Below, piece after piece: positions 54,312 to 63,165 of a DNA stretch of 64,000 nucleotides. Within the stretch, counting starts at the first letter, position 1, and every line of letters begins with the position of its first letter. The position numbers and the translations under genes are program-made. Source of the stretch: an uncultured Lacinutrix sp. (GTDB lineage Bacteria; Bacteroidota; Bacteroidia; Flavobacteriales; Flavobacteriaceae); assembly GCF_947500325.1 (NCBI RefSeq), contig NZ_CANMRQ010000001.1:64001-128000 (forward strand), in the 5' to 3' direction. The notes beneath the pieces were generated by a model that was not told the DNA's origin, did no database searches, and worked only from the letters and a program-made list of their open reading frames with translations.

Positions 54312-57300
54312 ATGAAAGATATATATATAGTAGCATTTGATCAAGGTACAACCAGTACAAGAACCATTATTTTTAATCAAAAAGGCCAAATAAAAGCCCT
54401 TGCACAAAAAGAATTAACTCAACATTATCCTCAATCTGGTTGGGTAGAGCATAATCCTTTAGATATTTATAATGATCAATTAGAAACTTTTAATCAAGCT
54501 GTTTTAAAATCTGCAATAAATATTAAAGATATTACAGCTATAGGGATAACTAATCAACGAGAAACTACTGTTGTTTGGGATAGAGAAACTGGAGAACCTA
54601 TATACAACGCTATTGTATGGCTAGATAAACGAACCACACCAATTTGTGATGATTTAAAAGAAAAAGGGCTTACAAATTATATTCGCGAACATACAGGACT
54701 AATTGTTGACTCTTACTTTTCGGCAACAAAATTAAAATGGATTTTAGATAACATAGAAGGTGCTCGAGCAAAAGCTGAAGCTGGTAAGTTATGCTTTGGA
54801 ACTATTGATAGTTGGTTAATTTATAAATTTACTAATGGAAAAAAACACGTTACCGATCACACCAACGCTTCTAGAACAATGCTGTACGACATTAAAAATT
54901 TGTGTTGGGATAAAACGTTGTTAGAAGCTTTAGATATTCCTCTATCTATATTACCAAAAGTTCAACAATCGTCTTCAGATTTTGGAACTATTACTTTTAA
55001 ACAAACTCACATTCCTATCTATGGTGTTGCGGGCGATCAACAAGCCTCTCTTTTTGGCCAAGGAGGCTTTAAGTCTGGAATTGCTAAAAACACTTATGGT
55101 ACTGGCTGTTTTATGCTACTTAATATTGGGAAAAAACAAATCACCTCAAAAAACGGATTACTAACAACTTTAACATGTAGTTTAGACTCAGAACCCATAA
55201 AATATGCTTTAGAAGGTAGTGTTTTTGCTGCAGGTGCTTCAATACAATGGTTACGAGATAAAATGCAACTTATTAAAAAAGCTTCTGAAACTGAAGCTAT
55301 TTGTAAAAGCATTCCTGCGTTAGAAGATATCTATGTTGTTCCTGCATTTGCTGGTTTAGGCGCACCATATTGGGATGAAAAAGCAAAAGGTAGCATCTAT
55401 GGTATGACTTTAGATACAGACAAAAATCAAATTATTAAAGCAACTGTTGAATCATTAGCATACCAAACCAAAGATCTTATTAATGCCATGATTAAAGATA
55501 GTGGTAAAGAAATAAAAACTTTAAAAGTTGATGGTGGCGCTAGCTCAAATAATTACTTGATGCAATTTCAAAGCGACATTTTAAATATTACTGTAGACAG
55601 ACCTAAAATGATTGAAGTCACTGCTTTTGGAGTTGCTCTTTTAGCAGGAATTAAAGCAGGAATTTGGAATAAAAACAATTTTGAAACCATTAGAGAAGTA
55701 GATACTATTTTTACTTCTAAAATGAAACCCAAAACTAGAAAGAAAAAATATAAAGGTTGGCTACAAGCAGTAGAAAGAACAAAAAGTTTTAGTAGAAAGA
55801 AAACAAAAACGACTTCTATACGGTTTTCTGTTTTAGATCGTGAAAAACAACTTAAAAGACTCATCTCCAAAACTTTTGATTTAATTATAATTGGCGGAGG
55901 TATTACTGGAGCTGGTATTGCTTTAGATGCATCTTCTCGTGGATTAAGTGTTTGTTTAGTTGAAAAAAACGACTTTGCCTCTGGCACTAGTAATAAATCT
56001 ACAAAACTAATTCATGGTGGATTACGTTATTTAAAACAACTAGAAATTGGATTAGTAAGAGAATCAGGTACAGAACGCGCTATAGTGCATAAATTGGCAC
56101 CGCATTTGGTTGTGCCAGAAAAAATGTTATTACCTCTTATAGAAGGAGGAACTTATGGTAAAATGATGACCTCTATTGGCTTAAAAGTATACGATATGCT
56201 CGCAAATGTTGGAGGAGATGACAGCCGAAAAATGCTTAACAAACAAGAGACTTTAGATAAAGAACCTCTTTTAGATAATACTATGGTTTTAGGTAGCGGT
56301 TATTATGCTGAATATAGAACTGATGACGCTAGATTAACAGTTGAAATATTAAAAAAAGCAACAGAATTTGGCGCTACAATTATAAATTACTGCGAAATGG
56401 AATCTTTTGTCTATAATAGCAATTCTAAAATTGAAAGTTTAAATTGTATCGATCACAATACTGGTAAAAGACTAAATATTACAGCTCGCAATTATGTCTC
56501 TGCCGCTGGCCCATGGGTAGATTTATTACGTAAAAAAGACCATTCGATTAATAATAAATATTTACACTTAACCAAAGGTGTTCACATTGTATTTCCACAC
56601 AAAAAACTACCTATTAAACAATCTGTTTATTTTGATGTAGAAGATGGCAGAATGATTTTTGCCATTCCACGAGGTCGCTCTACTTATGTAGGTACTACAG
56701 ATACAAATTATTCAGGAGATTTAGAACGCGTAATTGCAACAAAAGCTGATGCTAATTATTTATTAAAAGCAATAAATCATACGTTTCCAGATGTTAAGTT
56801 ATCAATAAAAGATATAGAGTCTAATTGGGCAGGATTACGACCATTAATTCATGAAGAAGAAAAAGACCCTTCAGAACTATCTAGAAAAGATGAAATTTTT
56901 ATTTCAGAAAGTGGCCTTATTTCAATTGCTGGTGGAAAATTAACTGGGTATCGTAAAATGGCGCATCGTGTTATTGATGCTGTATTAAAAACTGTTCCCG
57001 AAAAAAGAAAAAAACAACTTAAAAAATCATCTACCGAAAGTATCCTATTAGTTAATCCTTCATTGCAATCCTCAAAAGAAGTTAAAATTTATCAAAAAAA
57101 AATAGAAAAACAACTATCTAAAATGGGAGCTAATGAGCCTTATTATGCTTGGCATTTATGTAGCACTTTCGGAAAAAAGGCAGATAATATTATTAAAAAA
57201 GCTAGCTTCTTTATTGATGGCTCAATTCAAGAACGCTTAATTAGAGCCGAATTATGGTATTGCATCCATCATGAAATGACTAATAGTCTAGCAGATTTCT

Positions 57301-57482
57301 TTGTAAGACGAACTGGGCGCTTGTATTTTAATATTGAAAGTATTCGCAACCACCAAAATATCATTTTAAAAGATTGTATTAATTATCTAGATTGGGACAG
57401 TATTCGTGTTTTAAAAGAAAAAGAAACTATGCAACAATTATTAGATGATGCGATGACTTATTATGATTTAGAGTTTGAGTAA
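54312..57482 (+). CDS. Glycerol kinase - glycerol-3-phosphate dehydrogenase fusion
   Basis: 1056 residues in one frame. Residues 1-494 are a complete glycerol kinase: AFDQGTTSTRTIIF, GWVEHNP, ITNQRET, catalytic Asp242 in GDQQASLFGQ, and KVDGGASSNNYLMQF. Its usual C-terminus near KGWLQAVERTKSF is intact. After a basic linker (about 495-504) a full-length FAD-dependent GlpD of about 552 residues begins FSVLDREKQL; FAD-binding GGGITGAGIAL is at 528-538, then GTSNKSTKLIHGGLRYLKQ, YAEYRTDDARL and IAGGKLTGYRKMAH. No glpF is adjacent. One product would turn glycerol into dihydroxyacetone phosphate with quinone as acceptor. GlpD normally sits at the membrane. A lost stop codon by sequencing error is the main alternative. 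Confidence 0.9.
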   Translation: MKDIYIVAFDQGTTSTRTIIFNQKGQIKALAQKELTQHYPQSGWVEHNPLDIYNDQLETFNQAVLKSAINIKDITAIGITNQRETTVVWDRETGEPIYNAIVWLDKRTTPICDDLKEKGLTNYIREHTGLIVDSYFSATKLKWILDNIEGARAKAEAGKLCFGTIDSWLIYKFTNGKKHVTDHTNASRTMLYDIKNLCWDKTLLEALDIPLSILPKVQQSSSDFGTITFKQTHIPIYGVAGDQQASLFGQGGFKSGIAKNTYGTGCFMLLNIGKKQITSKNGLLTTLTCSLDSEPIKYALEGSVFAAGASIQWLRDKMQLIKKASETEAICKSIPALEDIYVVPAFAGLGAPYWDEKAKGSIYGMTLDTDKNQIIKATVESLAYQTKDLINAMIKDSGKEIKTLKVDGGASSNNYLMQFQSDILNITVDRPKMIEVTAFGVALLAGIKAGIWNKNNFETIREVDTIFTSKMKPKTRKKKYKGWLQAVERTKSFSRKKTKTTSIRFSVLDREKQLKRLISKTFDLIIIGGGITGAGIALDASSRGLSVCLVEKNDFASGTSNKSTKLIHGGLRYLKQLEIGLVRESGTERAIVHKLAPHLVVPEKMLLPLIEGGTYGKMMTSIGLKVYDMLANVGGDDSRKMLNKQETLDKEPLLDNTMVLGSGYYAEYRTDDARLTVEILKKATEFGATIINYCEMESFVYNSNSKIESLNCIDHNTGKRLNITARNYVSAAGPWVDLLRKKDHSINNKYLHLTKGVHIVFPHKKLPIKQSVYFDVEDGRMIFAIPRGRSTYVGTTDTNYSGDLERVIATKADANYLLKAINHTFPDVKLSIKDIESNWAGLRPLIHEEEKDPSELSRKDEIFISESGLISIAGGKLTGYRKMAHRVIDAVLKTVPEKRKKQLKKSSTESILLVNPSLQSSKEVKIYQKKIEKQLSKMGANEPYYAWHLCSTFGKKADNIIKKASFFIDGSIQERLIRAELWYCIHHEMTNSLADFFVRRTGRLYFNIESIRNHQNIILKDCINYLDWDSIRVLKEKETMQQLLDDAMTYYDLEFE

Positions 57483-57620: not shown

Positions 57621-58868
57621 ATGTTTAACCTTGATTTTTTTTTAAAAACAAAATATATAAAAGCCTCGTCTTTAACTAATGCTATTTTTGTTTGCCTTAT
57701 AATTTCAATTTTTTGTGGTTGTCTGGTTTTAATTAGTCATTATCAAATTTTAGTGAAATCACGTTTCGAAATTCAAAACGAACTTATTTCTAGAAACGAA
57801 TCTGCCTTTACTCATTTTTTAAATAACATTGAAACTATTAAAGATGATAGCGAAACAGTATTAGATATTTTTGATGATAATATCTTTTCTTTTGCAAAAA
57901 AAAAGAATTGGGGATTCTACTCTATTTTAAGCTGTAAAAGTGTTTTTAAAAATGATACAGTTTACAAAACGGCTTTAATAGGAAAGAAAAGTGAAAAAAA
58001 TATAGCTTTATATGTAACAGACTATGATAAGCCTTTAAAATTATCTGGAGATATTACATTTTTAGGAGATATTAAAGTCCCTAATTCCCGTATAGAACAA
58101 GCCTATATTAATGGCGTTTCTGGCAACAAAGTCAAGATTAAAGGTAAACAATTAAAATCTCAAGATAAATTACCGAAAATTGATAAAGAGATTTTGATTA
58201 ATCTTAATAATTATTCTACAGAAACTATAAAAAACGAAACTACAGTTTTTGTAAATAGCTTTAGTAACAAAACCATTGTAATTAATTTTGAAGAGCTTAA
58301 AAAATTAGATAAGGCAACTTTAAAAGGAAACATAATTTTAACGTCAAACAAAAGCATAACTATAGACAATTCATTAGCTATAAACGATATTTTAATAGTA
58401 GCTCCAAAAGTATATGTAAAAAAAGGGTTTAATGGAAATGCACAGATTATTGCAAAAACAGAAGTGGATATAGAAGAAGACGTTTCACTAACCTACCCTT
58501 CTAGTATTTATGTAAAAAATGATATAGATTCGGTTAATGTTTCTATAAAAAAAAACACGATCATTGCTGGTGGCATTGTTATTAATGGAAATACTTATAA
58601 AGGCTCCTTAAAAAGAAGTTTAACTATTGCCGAAGGTTCTAAAATAATAGGTAATGTATATTGCTATGGAAAAACACAATTAAAAGGAACTATAATAGGT
58701 TCTATATATAGTGATCGTTTTTTTTTAAAAACGGCATCTTCAAATTATGAGAACACTATTTTAAACGCTAGCATAAATAGGGATAGTTTACCTAAAAGCT
58801 TTGTAGAATTACCATTGTTTAAAACTAATATTGATAAAGCTAATTATGAAGTCCTTAAAACGTTTTAA
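57621..58868 (+). CDS. Large prepilin-like protein with C-terminal beta-solenoid (bactofilin-like) region
   Basis: 415 residues. N-terminus KYIKASSLTNAIFV followed by a helix to about 42: prepilin layout with Ala15 before the cut and Ser16 after it, but position +5 is Asn20, not Glu. In type II systems the large GspK-type minor pseudopilin also lacks Glu at +5. Residues about 115-400 repeat short beta strands with Gly turns (GDITFLGDIKV, TIIAGGIVINGN, GNVYCYGKTQLKG), reminiscent of bactofilin or right-handed beta-helix folds. This is not the GspK fold, so it may be the tip or a scaffold. First gene of the operon; overlaps the next. Confidence 0.65.
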   Translation: MFNLDFFLKTKYIKASSLTNAIFVCLIISIFCGCLVLISHYQILVKSRFEIQNELISRNESAFTHFLNNIETIKDDSETVLDIFDDNIFSFAKKKNWGFYSILSCKSVFKNDTVYKTALIGKKSEKNIALYVTDYDKPLKLSGDITFLGDIKVPNSRIEQAYINGVSGNKVKIKGKQLKSQDKLPKIDKEILINLNNYSTETIKNETTVFVNSFSNKTIVINFEELKKLDKATLKGNIILTSNKSITIDNSLAINDILIVAPKVYVKKGFNGNAQIIAKTEVDIEEDVSLTYPSSIYVKNDIDSVNVSIKKNTIIAGGIVINGNTYKGSLKRSLTIAEGSKIIGNVYCYGKTQLKGTIIGSIYSDRFFLKTASSNYENTILNASINRDSLPKSFVELPLFKTNIDKANYEVLKTF

Positions 58869-59202
58869 AACTCTTAAAGCATCTTCAATTATGGAGTCTG
58901 TAATTGCAATTGCAATTATTTCTATTTGCGCATTGGTAGCTTTAATGATATACGTAAACGTTGTTAAACAAAATAGCTCTGCATCTTATTATGAAGCCAT
59001 ACACAAAGTCAACTATTTAAAAAATGAAGCATTCCTTAATAAAGATTATCAAGACAATAGTTATATTTTTAAAGGCTATAAAATAGAAAAGACAGTAATA
59101 TTAAATAAGGACGAAAAGACTGCCCAATTAAAATGGAAAGTGGTTGTTGGCAGTAAAACTAAGATTTTTAATAGTTTAATTTCATATAATGAAGACTTAT
59201 AA
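58846..59202 (+). CDS. Prepilin-like protein (minor pseudopilin)
   Basis: 118 residues from the ATG at 58846 (a TTG at 58831 would give a longer leader). Leader FKTLKA is followed by SSIMESVIAIAIISICALVAL: Ala12 before the cut, Glu17 at +5, then a hydrophobic helix. The remaining 70 residues are a small alpha-beta domain ending in KVVVGSKTKIFN. It overlaps the upstream gene by 23 bases and the downstream one by 14, so it is strictly in the operon. Probable minor pseudopilin of GspI/J or PilV type. Confidence 0.75.
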   Translation: MKSLKRFKTLKASSIMESVIAIAIISICALVALMIYVNVVKQNSSASYYEAIHKVNYLKNEAFLNKDYQDNSYIFKGYKIEKTVILNKDEKTAQLKWKVVVGSKTKIFNSLISYNEDL

Positions 59203-59665
59203 ATTACAAGCGTATACTCTTATAGAAGCTTTAATTACTATTGTGTTGTCTAGTATTATTGTTGTAGTTAGCTATACTCTTGTTTCAACAATCTCTAAAC
59301 AATTGCATATTTTAAAACAAGAAAATGAAGAAGAGCTAGAGTATAACTTAATGAATTCTGCACTATTAAATGATTTTAATACTGCCGAAAATGCTACTTT
59401 TGAAAACACTTTTTTAGAATTACATTATTATAACAATAATATTATAAAATATAATTTTAAGAATGATAATATTATTAGAACTACTAAAGTAAAGACAGAT
59501 ACATTTAAAATAAAAACAATTAGTTATTCGTTTGAAGAAACAAAGTCTAACTCAAGCGTTTTAAAATTAAAACTAAAGTTGTTTAATGTTAGTTTAGATG
59601 CCAACTATTATGCAAACATCTCTCTTTCTAATTTAATTAATAAGAAGTATTTTAATGAAGATTGA
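59189..59665 (+). CDS. Prepilin-like protein (minor pseudopilin)
   Basis: 158 residues. Leader MKTYKLQA, then YTLIEALITIVLSSIIVVVSY: Ala8 before the cut, Glu13 at +5. The rest is helix to about 50 and then a beta-rich domain; GspJ/PilW-type is a reasonable guess by size. Start and stop overlap neighbours by 14 and 11 bases. Confidence 0.75.
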   Translation: MKTYKLQAYTLIEALITIVLSSIIVVVSYTLVSTISKQLHILKQENEEELEYNLMNSALLNDFNTAENATFENTFLELHYYNNNIIKYNFKNDNIIRTTKVKTDTFKIKTISYSFEETKSNSSVLKLKLKLFNVSLDANYYANISLSNLINKKYFNED

Positions 59666-60782
59666 TACTAGTTTATATAAAGAGCCTTCTGGTAAGAAAA
59701 AACAATCTATTGATTTAGATGGATTCTTACCTAAACGTTTTTTTAATCGATTTTCAGACAAGCAAAAGGAAGAGTTTTATAGAGAGTTTTCTACTTTAAT
59801 AAAATCTGGTGTAGACTTCAATCAAGCATTACACATCTTAACTAGTCAACAAAAATCTAAGTTTTTAAGTGACTTATATGGCAGTATTAATAAATCTGTA
59901 GTAAAAGGAAAAACACTTTTCGAAACATTAAAAACAAGCTCCTATTTTTCACCTTACGAATATTACAGCATAAAGATTGGAGAAGAAACAAGACGTTTAC
60001 CAGAAATATTTGATCAACTGCAACTCTTTTTTTCAAGAAAAAAAAGAATGAAACGACAAATTGTTTCTGTTTTAGCATACCCCATTTTTGTTTTGTGCTT
60101 TACTTTTGCAGTGCTTTATTTTATGCTAAATTTTGTAGTCCCAATGTTCTCTTCTGTATTTCAACAATTTGGAAAAGAACTTCCTAAAATAACACAATTT
60201 GTAGTTAAATTATCCAACCATTTTAATAGTGTTTTTTTAATTGTCTTAGGCCTAATATTTAGTTTTATTATTATGCATAAAACATTAAACAATAATGATA
60301 GATATAAAAGTATTATTTCAACTATAATACTTAAAATACCTTTTTTTGGTGCTTTAATGAAAAAAATCTATTTAGCTCGTTTTTGCCAATCATTAAGTTT
60401 ATTACTCTCCGCTAGAACACCTTTAATAACTGCTTTAGAGTTAACAGAGAAAATGATTTCTTTTTACCCATTAAAAAAAGCTATTTCAGAATCTAGAAAA
60501 GATGTGTTAAAAGGCGAAACTTTTGCTAATAGCTTAAGTAAACACTCTTTTTTTAATTCTAAAATAATATCATTAACATCTATAGGAGAAGACATTAATG
60601 AACTTGACAAGATGTATGATGGGCTGTCTAATCAATATAATGATGATATTGAGCACTCTACAAAAATGATAGGCACTATTTTAGAACCTGTAATGGTCAT
60701 TTTAATTGGCGCAATTGTTGGGTTTATTATGGTTGCTATGTATTCTCCAATTTTTGATTTAAGTAAAGTTATTCAAAACTAA
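59655..60782 (+). CDS. gspF: GspF/PilC-family inner-membrane platform protein
   Basis: 375 residues. Two T2SSF domains: the first (about 40-160, LIKSGVDFNQALHIL and LKIGEETRRLPEIFDQL-like) and the second (about 240-360, LLLSARTPLITALELT and SIGEDINELDKMYDGL). Transmembrane helices near 145-165, 190-210 and 345-365. It would connect the ATPase to the pseudopilus in the inner membrane. It overlaps the preceding pseudopilin gene by 11 bases. Confidence 0.88.
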   Translation: MKIDTSLYKEPSGKKKQSIDLDGFLPKRFFNRFSDKQKEEFYREFSTLIKSGVDFNQALHILTSQQKSKFLSDLYGSINKSVVKGKTLFETLKTSSYFSPYEYYSIKIGEETRRLPEIFDQLQLFFSRKKRMKRQIVSVLAYPIFVLCFTFAVLYFMLNFVVPMFSSVFQQFGKELPKITQFVVKLSNHFNSVFLIVLGLIFSFIIMHKTLNNNDRYKSIISTIILKIPFFGALMKKIYLARFCQSLSLLLSARTPLITALELTEKMISFYPLKKAISESRKDVLKGETFANSLSKHSFFNSKIISLTSIGEDINELDKMYDGLSNQYNDDIEHSTKMIGTILEPVMVILIGAIVGFIMVAMYSPIFDLSKVIQN

Positions 60783-60802
60783 AAATGTTCAACCAAAAGT
60801 AA

Positions 60803-60810
60803 TATATTTG
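60803..60810 (+). promoter_or_regulatory. Internal -7 box ahead of the major pseudopilin
   Basis: TATATTTG is an exact TAnnTTTG in the only sizeable gap of the operon (62 bp), with a predicted leader of about 29 bases. It could raise expression of the pseudopilin. Confidence 0.4.
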
Positions 60811-60844
60811 CCTGTTATTGCTATAATTAACTAATTCTAATGCT

Positions 60845-61261
60845 ATGAAAATCTCAAATAAAAAAAGATACCGACTAAAGGCATATTCTCTTCAAGAAAT
60901 ATTAGTTGTGCTGTGTATTATTGGAATTTTAATTTATTTGGTATTGCCAAATCAAACCTCTGTTGTTACTAGTGCAAAAGCTATTGAAGCTCAAAATATG
61001 TTGAGTATGATTCATAGTTTAGAAAAAAACCATTTTTATAGACACTCTAAATACTCTACAAGCTTTGAAGATATTGGTTTTGAACATGATATAACAATAG
61101 ACAACGGTGGTCCTGCTGTTTATAAGATTCAAATAATAGAAGCGTCATTAAATACTTATAAAGCCACAGCCACTTCACTTCAAGATTTTGATGGCGATGG
61201 TATTTATAATACTTGGCAAATAGATCAAAATAGGTCGCTTAAAGAAATTATAAAAGACTAA
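60845..61261 (+). CDS. gspG: Major pseudopilin, GspG-like
   Basis: 138 residues. Leader ends RLKA; the cut comes after Ala13, then YSLQEILVVLCIIGILIYLV with Glu18 at +5 and a long helix (to about 60). The short C-terminal domain ends with DFDGDGIYNTWQID, an Asp-rich loop like the calcium site of GspG. Cys24 inside the helix is unusual but not alone. As the only small pseudopilin with a complete helix and a gap and promoter before it, it is the best candidate for the main pilus subunit. Confidence 0.8.
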   Translation: MKISNKKRYRLKAYSLQEILVVLCIIGILIYLVLPNQTSVVTSAKAIEAQNMLSMIHSLEKNHFYRHSKYSTSFEDIGFEHDITIDNGGPAVYKIQIIEASLNTYKATATSLQDFDGDGIYNTWQIDQNRSLKEIIKD

Positions 61262-61262
61262 T

Positions 61263-61763
61263 TTGACTCCTATTTTATTATCTATATTGTTAACCTTGAT
61301 ACTACTAATTACTACATATCAAGATTTTGTTTCGCGTTCCATCCATGTAGCGCTTCCTGTTATTGTATTTATAATAGCACTAGTATTAAATTACTTGTCT
61401 TTAAATCTAACTATTTATGACACCTTGTATAATGTGTTATTTATAACAATAAATATAATAAGTCTAGTGCTTTATTTTTCAATAAAATCTAAACAGTTAA
61501 CTAACCCAATAGACAATGCCATAGGTATAGGAGATATTGTCTTGTTTTTCGCAATTACACCATTATTTAAAACAACGTCATTTATTTTATTCTTTATTAT
61601 TAGTTTACTATTAACTCTAATTATACACAATGTTATTAATCTATTTAAAGATGTAAAAACTATCCCGTTAGCTGGATATTTAGCTGGTTTTTTAGCTGGT
61701 TTTTTAGCTATTAATATTATTATTAAAAACGTTTTTAAAATTAATATACTTTTTAATGGATAA
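61263..61763 (+). CDS. Prepilin peptidase, short A24-type
   Basis: 166 residues, five to six membrane helices. Catalytic Asp21 in TYQDFVSRSIHV and Asp91 in IGIGDIVLFF make up the GxGD aspartyl-protease pair. The N-terminal methyltransferase domain and its cysteines (found in PilD) are absent, as in archaeal or TadV-type short peptidases, so the mature prepilins may not be N-methylated. The only possible start is TTG at 61263, since no ATG occurs in the frame; the stop of gspG is one base upstream, so it is coupled. Confidence 0.8.
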   Translation: MTPILLSILLTLILLITTYQDFVSRSIHVALPVIVFIIALVLNYLSLNLTIYDTLYNVLFITINIISLVLYFSIKSKQLTNPIDNAIGIGDIVLFFAITPLFKTTSFILFFIISLLLTLIIHNVINLFKDVKTIPLAGYLAGFLAGFLAINIIIKNVFKINILFNG

Positions 61764-63165
61764 TATTAACACAAAACATATCGAGTTAACTGTAAGTCAA
61801 CAACAATCTATTAGTAGTGATATAGCAAATCACTTTAATATAATTCCAAAGACAATAAGTGATTCTCAATTGAGTTTTTACATTGATAACACAAAAGAGA
61901 AAGACTTTAACTCTATAAAAGAAGAACTTAAACTGCTATTTAATAAGACTATAGATTTAGAACCTATAGAAGTGGCTGTTATAAAAAAAGCACTCTCTGT
62001 TTACTATAGAAAACATAACGACAAGCCACGAACTGTCTCTTATGAAAATGATTTTTTAGAAACTTTAATTTTTGAAGCTAAAGCTATTAACGCGAGTGAC
62101 ATACATATAGAAATTTATGAAGAAGACGTTAGAGTAAGATTGAGAATTGATGGGCAATTAATTGAAAAAAACCATATAAAAAAAGATTCTTATTTAGAAT
62201 TAATTAATCAAATAAAAATTAAATCCAACCTAGATATTACAGAAAAAAGACTTCCTCAAGATGGTAGAATAGAATATGATGATTTTGATATAAGAGTTTC
62301 TATTTTACCAACTCATCATGGAGAAAAAGTAGTTATGAGAATTTTAGGTCGAGATGCATCGCACTTAGACATTAATCAACTTGGTTTAGAAAAAGAAGAT
62401 GCTATATTGTATCTAGAAGCAGTAAAAAAAACAAATGGTATTGTTTTAATTAGTGGGCCTACTGGTTCTGGTAAAACAACAACTTTATACGGTACTTTAA
62501 AATATCTAAACGATATTAAACGAAATATTGTTACTGTAGAAGATCCAATAGAATATACGTTAAAAGGGATAAATCAAGTACAATTAAAAGAAGGTATTGG
62601 CTTAACCTTTTCTGCCGCATTACGCTCTTTCTTAAGGCAAGATCCAGATATTATTATGTTAGGTGAAATTAGAGATGCAGAAACAGCCCAAATGGCTATA
62701 AGAGCATCGTTAACTGGCCATTTAGTATTATCTACAATACACACCAATTCTGCAATAGGAACAATCTCAAGATTAGTAGACATGGGTGTCCCTCCTTTTT
62801 TAATTGCTGAAACAATAAATGTATCTGTAGCACAACGATTAGTAAGAACTCTTTGTAAATCTTGTAAAACAGAAGCTAATTTTAATTATGAAGATTTACC
62901 ACAATCTTTTACGACATCTCATAACATAAAAACACATCAAGTTGCAGCAGGTTGTGAAGAGTGCTATTATACAGGTTATAAAGGAAGAAGAGCTATTTAT
63001 GAAGTACTTCCTGTAAATAAAAGTGTTATAGAATCAATTAAAAACAACACTATAGAACAATCTAATTTTATTGAAGGTAAAAAATTATCTGACAAAGCAT
63101 TTAATTTATTAATTAAAGGTGAAACGTCTTTAGATGAAATTTACCCAATACTTATTAATTCTTAA
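61756..63165 (+). CDS. gspE: GspE/PilB-family ATPase
   Basis: Assembly motor for the pseudopilus. 469 residues. N-terminal domain to about 90, then linker; Walker A GPTGSGKTTTLYG (234-246), Asp box TVEDPIEY, Walker B with DPDIIMLGEIRDAET, His box STIHTNSA. The tetracysteine zinc motif is present (CKSC and CEEC, near 373 and 396). It overlaps the peptidase gene by eight bases. Confidence 0.93.
   Translation: MDNINTKHIELTVSQQQSISSDIANHFNIIPKTISDSQLSFYIDNTKEKDFNSIKEELKLLFNKTIDLEPIEVAVIKKALSVYYRKHNDKPRTVSYENDFLETLIFEAKAINASDIHIEIYEEDVRVRLRIDGQLIEKNHIKKDSYLELINQIKIKSNLDITEKRLPQDGRIEYDDFDIRVSILPTHHGEKVVMRILGRDASHLDINQLGLEKEDAILYLEAVKKTNGIVLISGPTGSGKTTTLYGTLKYLNDIKRNIVTVEDPIEYTLKGINQVQLKEGIGLTFSAALRSFLRQDPDIIMLGEIRDAETAQMAIRASLTGHLVLSTIHTNSAIGTISRLVDMGVPPFLIAETINVSVAQRLVRTLCKSCKTEANFNYEDLPQSFTTSHNIKTHQVAAGCEECYYTGYKGRRAIYEVLPVNKSVIESIKNNTIEQSNFIEGKKLSDKAFNLLIKGETSLDEIYPILINS

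Follow-up and report, generated by a model that had tools for sequence, protein, structure and literature searches.

In the 64,000-nucleotide stretch of DNA from an uncultured Lacinutrix sp. analysed here (hereafter the window), one gene is confirmed to encode, as judged from its sequence, a single polypeptide made up of a full-length glycerol kinase (GlpK), a short basic linker and a full-length FAD-dependent glycerol-3-phosphate (G3P) dehydrogenase. We consider it probable (about 0.8) that this is a bifunctional enzyme whose joint arose once, in the ancestor of a clade, and was later lost in place on at least two occasions, with a third loss in Gillisia. The frame, described in the original prediction as one uninterrupted run of 1056 codons, indeed extends unbroken from ATG to TAA at 54312-57482 (1056 codons plus the stop), and the features of the gene are as follows:

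54312..57482, + strand: fused glpK-glpD gene, a single open frame
54312..55787, + strand: glycerol kinase half, residues 1-492 (TIGR01311; collinear with E. coli GlpK)
54324-55058 and 55086-55655, + strand: FGGY_N and FGGY_C domains, respectively, within the kinase half
55788..55823, + strand: basic linker FSRKKTKTTSIR, residues 493-504 (aligned linkers of 35 fused loci; pLDDT)
55824..57479, + strand: FAD glycerol-3-phosphate dehydrogenase half, residues 505-1056 (PF01266, PF16901; 3da1)
55878-56870 and 57093-57401, + strand: DAO and DAO_C domains, respectively, within the dehydrogenase half

The kinase half scores 695.1 bits over residues 5-492 against TIGR01311, the curated equivalog model of GlpK (cut-off 590.35), and is collinear with E. 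coli GlpK of the FGGY family (PDB 1bo5), residues 4-493 of the query lying on GlpK 4-496. Its NQRETT, DSYFS and GDQQA motifs align with the R-E, Y and D that we take to be the catalytic residues of the E. coli enzyme, in keeping with the claim that the catalytic motifs of the kinase had been retained. The likeness to GlpK is full length and collinear up to E. coli residue 496; where GlpK ends in a tail that reads GWEEQ or GWEEN in 5 of 8 never-fused loci, the window protein instead has a basic linker leading into a second enzyme. In that second half, PF01266 (DAO) is matched at residues 523-853 with 184.4 bits (cut-off 27.9) and PF16901 (DAO_C) at residues 928-1030 with 50.3 bits (cut-off 31.4), and its 552 residues are collinear with the closest solved structure, the glycerol-3-phosphate dehydrogenase 3da1 (residues 1-526 on 3da1 2-524, E 6e-152). 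The half stays below the cut-off of the GlpD equivalog model PRK12266 (325.5 versus 360 bits) and gives its best alignment with 3da1, and for these reasons we assign it to the wider family only. It also scores below the cut-off for the type 1 oxidase GlpO (NF033461; 458 versus 840 bits), and the oxidase 2rgo matches in two stretches, its extra segment breaking the alignment. Apart from falling below PRK12266, the half differs from known GlpD (PDB 3da1; E. coli 2qcu) in being preceded by a whole kinase and in lacking a start codon of its own. Together with the solved enzymes, the TIGR01311, PF01266 and PF16901 matches bear out the earlier statement that both halves are of full length, and the basic linker of about ten residues is found at residues 493-504. 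We infer that both enzymatic activities would be working. Within the window's genome, a 130-contig draft, the sole other match spans 70 residues at E 2.6e-4, and no second gene copy of comparable strength was found.

In the window gene no ATG, GTG or TTG occurs between the last matched residue of the kinase and a point 15 residues into GlpD, which would leave a separate GlpD without an ordinary start there. The linker region is free of start codons in 19 of 35 fused loci (the window's included) and holds a possible one in the other 16. An AlphaFold2 model of the window protein, built on 42 alignment rows, has a mean pLDDT of 77.5 and a pTM of 0.54, a value at which the mutual placement of the domains is unreliable. 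Residues 493-501, which lie between helices at 473-490 and 507-519, have a pLDDT below 50 in this model, as a flexible tether would. The best 50 of 1862 Foldseek matches are all glycerol kinases and thus bear on the first half only, the dehydrogenase half being assigned by sequence.

Of 65 loci found by a scan of named species genomes, all from other assemblies, 24 have both halves in a single open frame. Their holders include Tenacibaculum agarivorans HZ1, T. skagerrakense DSM 14836, Leeuwenhoekiella marinoflava DSM 3653, L. aestuarii, L. polynyae, Aquimarina spongiae DSM 22623, Spongiivirga citrea KCTC 32990 and a Kordia isolate, with culture-collection strains in Tenacibaculum, Leeuwenhoekiella, Aquimarina and Spongiivirga; other holders are MAGs, one of which, labelled Cytophagaceae, adjoins Leeuwenhoekiella in the tree. 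The fused enzyme is found in a group of mostly marine bacteria. In Polaribacter sp. MSW5 (L055) the joint is open, but the frame breaks inside the dehydrogenase half (L055:7655-7709), which marks either a pseudogene or an assembly error. The suggestion that close relatives might all have separate genes with stop codons at this place holds for part of them only, in that these 24 loci share the open joint and other relatives are split. The same loci rule out a base-calling slip at the joint. That the two genes are truly separate in the window's genome, and their union an assembly or base-calling error, might be thought in view of the draft state of that genome and of its being the only fused one among 13 of its genus (any strong match in 7 of 13). 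We nevertheless regard this as extremely improbable, given the open joint in other assemblies, the absence at the joint of a GlpD start codon, which one miscalled base would not explain, and a dN/dS that, in comparison with the nearest relative, is about 0.05 for either half.

The fusion is uncommon both in the family and in the phylum. Among 397 sampled Flavobacteriaceae genomes at least 15 carry the fused form (the window's included; one cut by a contig end), and 226 have any match at E 1e-60 among the matches listed. Uninterrupted full-length matches occur in at least 3 of 395 genomes of the phylum sample (G000, G353 and G723), the first two of which are also in the family sample; in both samples weakly matching fusions could be missed. 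Fused and naturally split homologues are roughly 60-80% identical to the window's protein, and the genes are separate in seven relatives from the initial search. A long open-frame figure suggested further fusions (for example in G030, G455, G705, G251 and G429). That figure includes read-through of stops, and neither G030 nor any of 20 more regions checked, some chosen otherwise (e.g. for a lone GlpD), is fused. Among plasmid records, 554 have a match; in 9 of them the match extends over 80% or more of the query but is always broken into two pieces. Four of these nine are annotated as two genes, two more (Paenibacillus and one Enterococcus) were read and have separate genes, and the other three are Enterococcus records with the same match length and scores very like those of the Enterococcus record that was read. 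Two one-piece plasmid matches covering only 59-65% of the query (Microvirga, Pseudoalteromonas) were also discarded, as the genes are separate.

To place fused and split forms in relation to one another, we drew on 68 loci with both halves scored, 40 of them fused. The main tree holds 56 distinct, nearly complete rows (33 fused, 15 split and 8 of a never-fused outgroup), and in it the fused state is ancestral to a 48-row clade within which the 15 split rows are nested in two places: split group 1, Lacinutrix-like, with 4 rows and sister to a fused locus, and split group 2, of Algibacter, Flavivirga and Maribacter, with 11 rows. Three changes suffice on the best tree and on 1000 of 1000 bootstrap trees; when splitting is forbidden, 7 fusions are needed on the best tree and 4-8 over the bootstraps. 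AU tests of the trait groups, made once an initial tree was known, rejected a single clade of fused rows at p=0.00035 and a single clade of split rows at p=3.4e-5 under the model used. A recent fusion through the loss of one base between overlapping genes was rejected, the split relatives being nested inside the fused ones. Separate trees of GlpD (79 rows) and GlpK (61 rows) repeat this pattern with 4 changes each, apart from two conflicts. In these, the long-branched split loci L185 and L186 place their GlpD at the base of the clade in the GlpD-only tree and their GlpK with split group 1, and genome G133 has its kinase among the fused loci and its GlpD with lone and split GlpDs. In G133 glpK and glpD lie on different contigs (L175 and L188), the pair being physically separated as well. 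Lone GlpDs other than those of Gillisia fall with split group 2 in the GlpD tree.

The DNA around the joint carries its own marks, which we measured as the spacing from the conserved W near the end of GlpK to the first F of GlpD. This spacing is 60-75 nt in 35 of 35 fused loci (one of which is a repeat with the same GlpD), 63 and 66 nt being the commonest lengths. In split group 2 it is 64 nt in 10 of 11 loci and 62 nt in the other, no more than two bases away from a length common among fused loci. Split group 1 has 68-70 nt in 3 of 5 loci and 251 nt in the remaining 2, L185 and L186 have 58 and 59 nt, and the 8 never-fused loci span 75-156 nt, meeting the fused range at 75 nt. Two Gillisia genomes retain, in frame ahead of GlpD, a relic of the GlpK tail (glpD at L063:2105-3916 and L064:5001-6815) that matches kinase residues 454-498 at 64% and 56% identity. 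No kinase was found in the upstream stretch examined at either locus, and in the GlpD tree their dehydrogenase genes cluster with that of the window (99/87). No such relic was found in the other 18 of 20 lone-GlpD loci, one of which (L078) has only 2 upstream bases. We read the spacing and the Gillisia relics as marks of in-place fission, and in Gillisia the third undoing of the joint would have come with the loss of most of the kinase. A separate observation comes from an Algibacter MAG, where a kinase stretch (residues 362-489, 48%) with an internal stop precedes an intact glpD (L067:925-1314, coordinates the same as in L125) and, from its sequence, looks like a decaying glpK.

One ancient fusion followed by repeated in-place fission is, in our opinion, the best reading of these data, and its main competitor turns the direction around: neighbouring glpK and glpD would have been fused several times independently and never separated, the split relatives keeping the original state. 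In the never-fused outgroup the two genes lie side by side in one orientation, some never-fused pairs share a frame with only stops between them, and gene fusion is usually considered more frequent than fission. The direction of change rests on the tree, and if fission were about three times harder than joining, several fusions would be equally cheap. Set against this are the 7 fusions needed on the best tree (4-8 when the bootstrap trees are counted) where one fusion and two splits suffice, the joining of all 35 fused loci at the same place with a spacing of 60-75 nt, the 64-nt spacing in nearly all of split group 2, and the Gillisia relic, which points to loss from a joined form. We therefore think repeated independent fusion unlikely, and prefer the single fusion with later fission.

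Whether the joint does anything for its owner is another matter. In comparisons of 12 fused pairs, dN/dS of the kinase half lay at 0.03-0.15. The dehydrogenase half gave 0.02-0.10 in 10 of the 12 (one was unscored and in one dS was undefined), and split pairs (n=3) gave 0.035-0.067. These values point to strong purifying selection on both halves, each probably kept as a working enzyme; selection acting on each half is not, in itself, evidence that the joint is selected. The fusion could be neutral, a joined operon whose benefit is no more than that of co-expression, which would be compatible with a history of fusion and then fission. On two or more occasions the joint has been lost while the enzymes stayed, and the fusion is uncommon in the family, both of which suit such neutrality; the fused form has, however, persisted in several genera, most pairs showing a dS near or above 1 and a dN/dS of about 0.05, and on balance we regard neutrality as a serious possibility that somewhat less probably holds than fails. 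The existence of split descendants indicates that the joint is not essential, and its repeated loss makes any advantage conditional.

The genomic setting of the window's gene differs from that in its congeners. The fused gene follows ribE, and in four congeners (G002, G005, G010 and G011) the genes after ribE are different, with no match to the contig of the window in the ~21 kb that follow; the split pair of G002 lies ~2.3 Mb from its ribE, and that of G001 is on another contig. In the tree the window's gene is nearest to Kordia's and not to those of its congeners, and it was likely acquired from another flavobacterium. Downstream of the fused gene, at 57621-63165, lies a type II secretion/pilin-like cluster (T2SSF, T2SSE) with an N-methylation motif just under its cut-off, the first gene of which has a homologue in 2 of 10 congeners searched. 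Two genes of the MIP (aquaporin/glycerol facilitator) family exceed the Pfam cut-off elsewhere in the window's genome (G000:C21:35386-36054 and G000:C19:16771-17397), neither adjoining the fused gene.

Long flanks were surveyed at 51 loci (29 fused and 22 not), and 23 of these have a sodium:solute symporter homologue, immediately upstream in 22 and downstream in one (L053). In 11 of 29 fused loci and in 11 of 11 loci of split group 2, the symporter gene stops 17-150 nt short of glpK. A second neighbour, present in 20 of the 51 loci, is homologous to a protein of 589 residues that matches Melibiase weakly; the family scan of these two neighbours was made on the copies of one locus (L065:1540-4971). 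Neither has a homologue within the flank examined in the window. As a guess, imported glycosyl-glycerols might be the source of glycerol at the symporter loci. A link to floridoside, to which a hydrolase-like gene upstream at some loci had pointed, found no support in the literature searched. At four loci (L171-L174) an ORF of 280-296 residues lies upstream of a lone glpD, the L172 copy being alpha/beta-hydrolase-like. The separate glpK-glpD pairs of Flavobacteriaceae resemble the fused gene in having both enzymes, in their order and adjacency and, in part, in the upstream symporter homologue, yet differ in that a stop codon and a start codon part the two, which are made as separate proteins.

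We found no GlpK-GlpD fusion of this kind in the open-access literature, subscription journals lying mostly outside that coverage, and to this extent the suggestion that such a fusion had not been described is supported. This pair appears to be new as a fusion, although bifunctional fusions of consecutive enzymes are already known. The glycerol-3-phosphate dehydrogenase/phosphatase fusions of algae likewise join two consecutive enzymes of glycerol metabolism in one chain, but run in the opposite direction of the pathway and are built from unrelated domains.

In terms of function, GlpK is a soluble, oligomeric enzyme, GlpD is a monotopic (peripheral) membrane enzyme that feeds the quinone pool, and G3P is a phospholipid precursor that is toxic in excess. 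The N-terminal half of the fused protein would phosphorylate glycerol with ATP, and the C-terminal half would oxidize the resulting G3P to dihydroxyacetone phosphate with FAD, passing the electrons, by family, to the membrane quinone pool. Tied by a short, flexible, lysine-rich linker, the dehydrogenase half may hold the kinase at the membrane in a 1:1 ratio, and the tether may bring G3P to its consumer and keep free G3P low. Channelling of G3P and recruitment of the kinase to the membrane, both proposed in the original prediction, are plausible, the flexibility of the linker speaking for proximity rather than a sealed tunnel, and the interpretation as a whole is partly supported. We would give somewhat better than even odds to the fuller account in which the flavobacterial fusion arose once, anchors phosphorylation at the membrane and has been undone independently at least three times, by a mutational route still readable in the DNA: a one- or two-base shift in the linker, and a relic kinase tail.

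What the gene offers is a kinase, soluble by family, joined to the peripheral membrane dehydrogenase that uses its product, and an example of gene fission that occurred repeatedly and left intermediate states behind; fission of membrane-protein genes has been called rare (PMC3464245). An annotation named after one half would hide the second activity. With both fused and split homologues occurring in nature, channelling of G3P and control of its pool can be tested directly.
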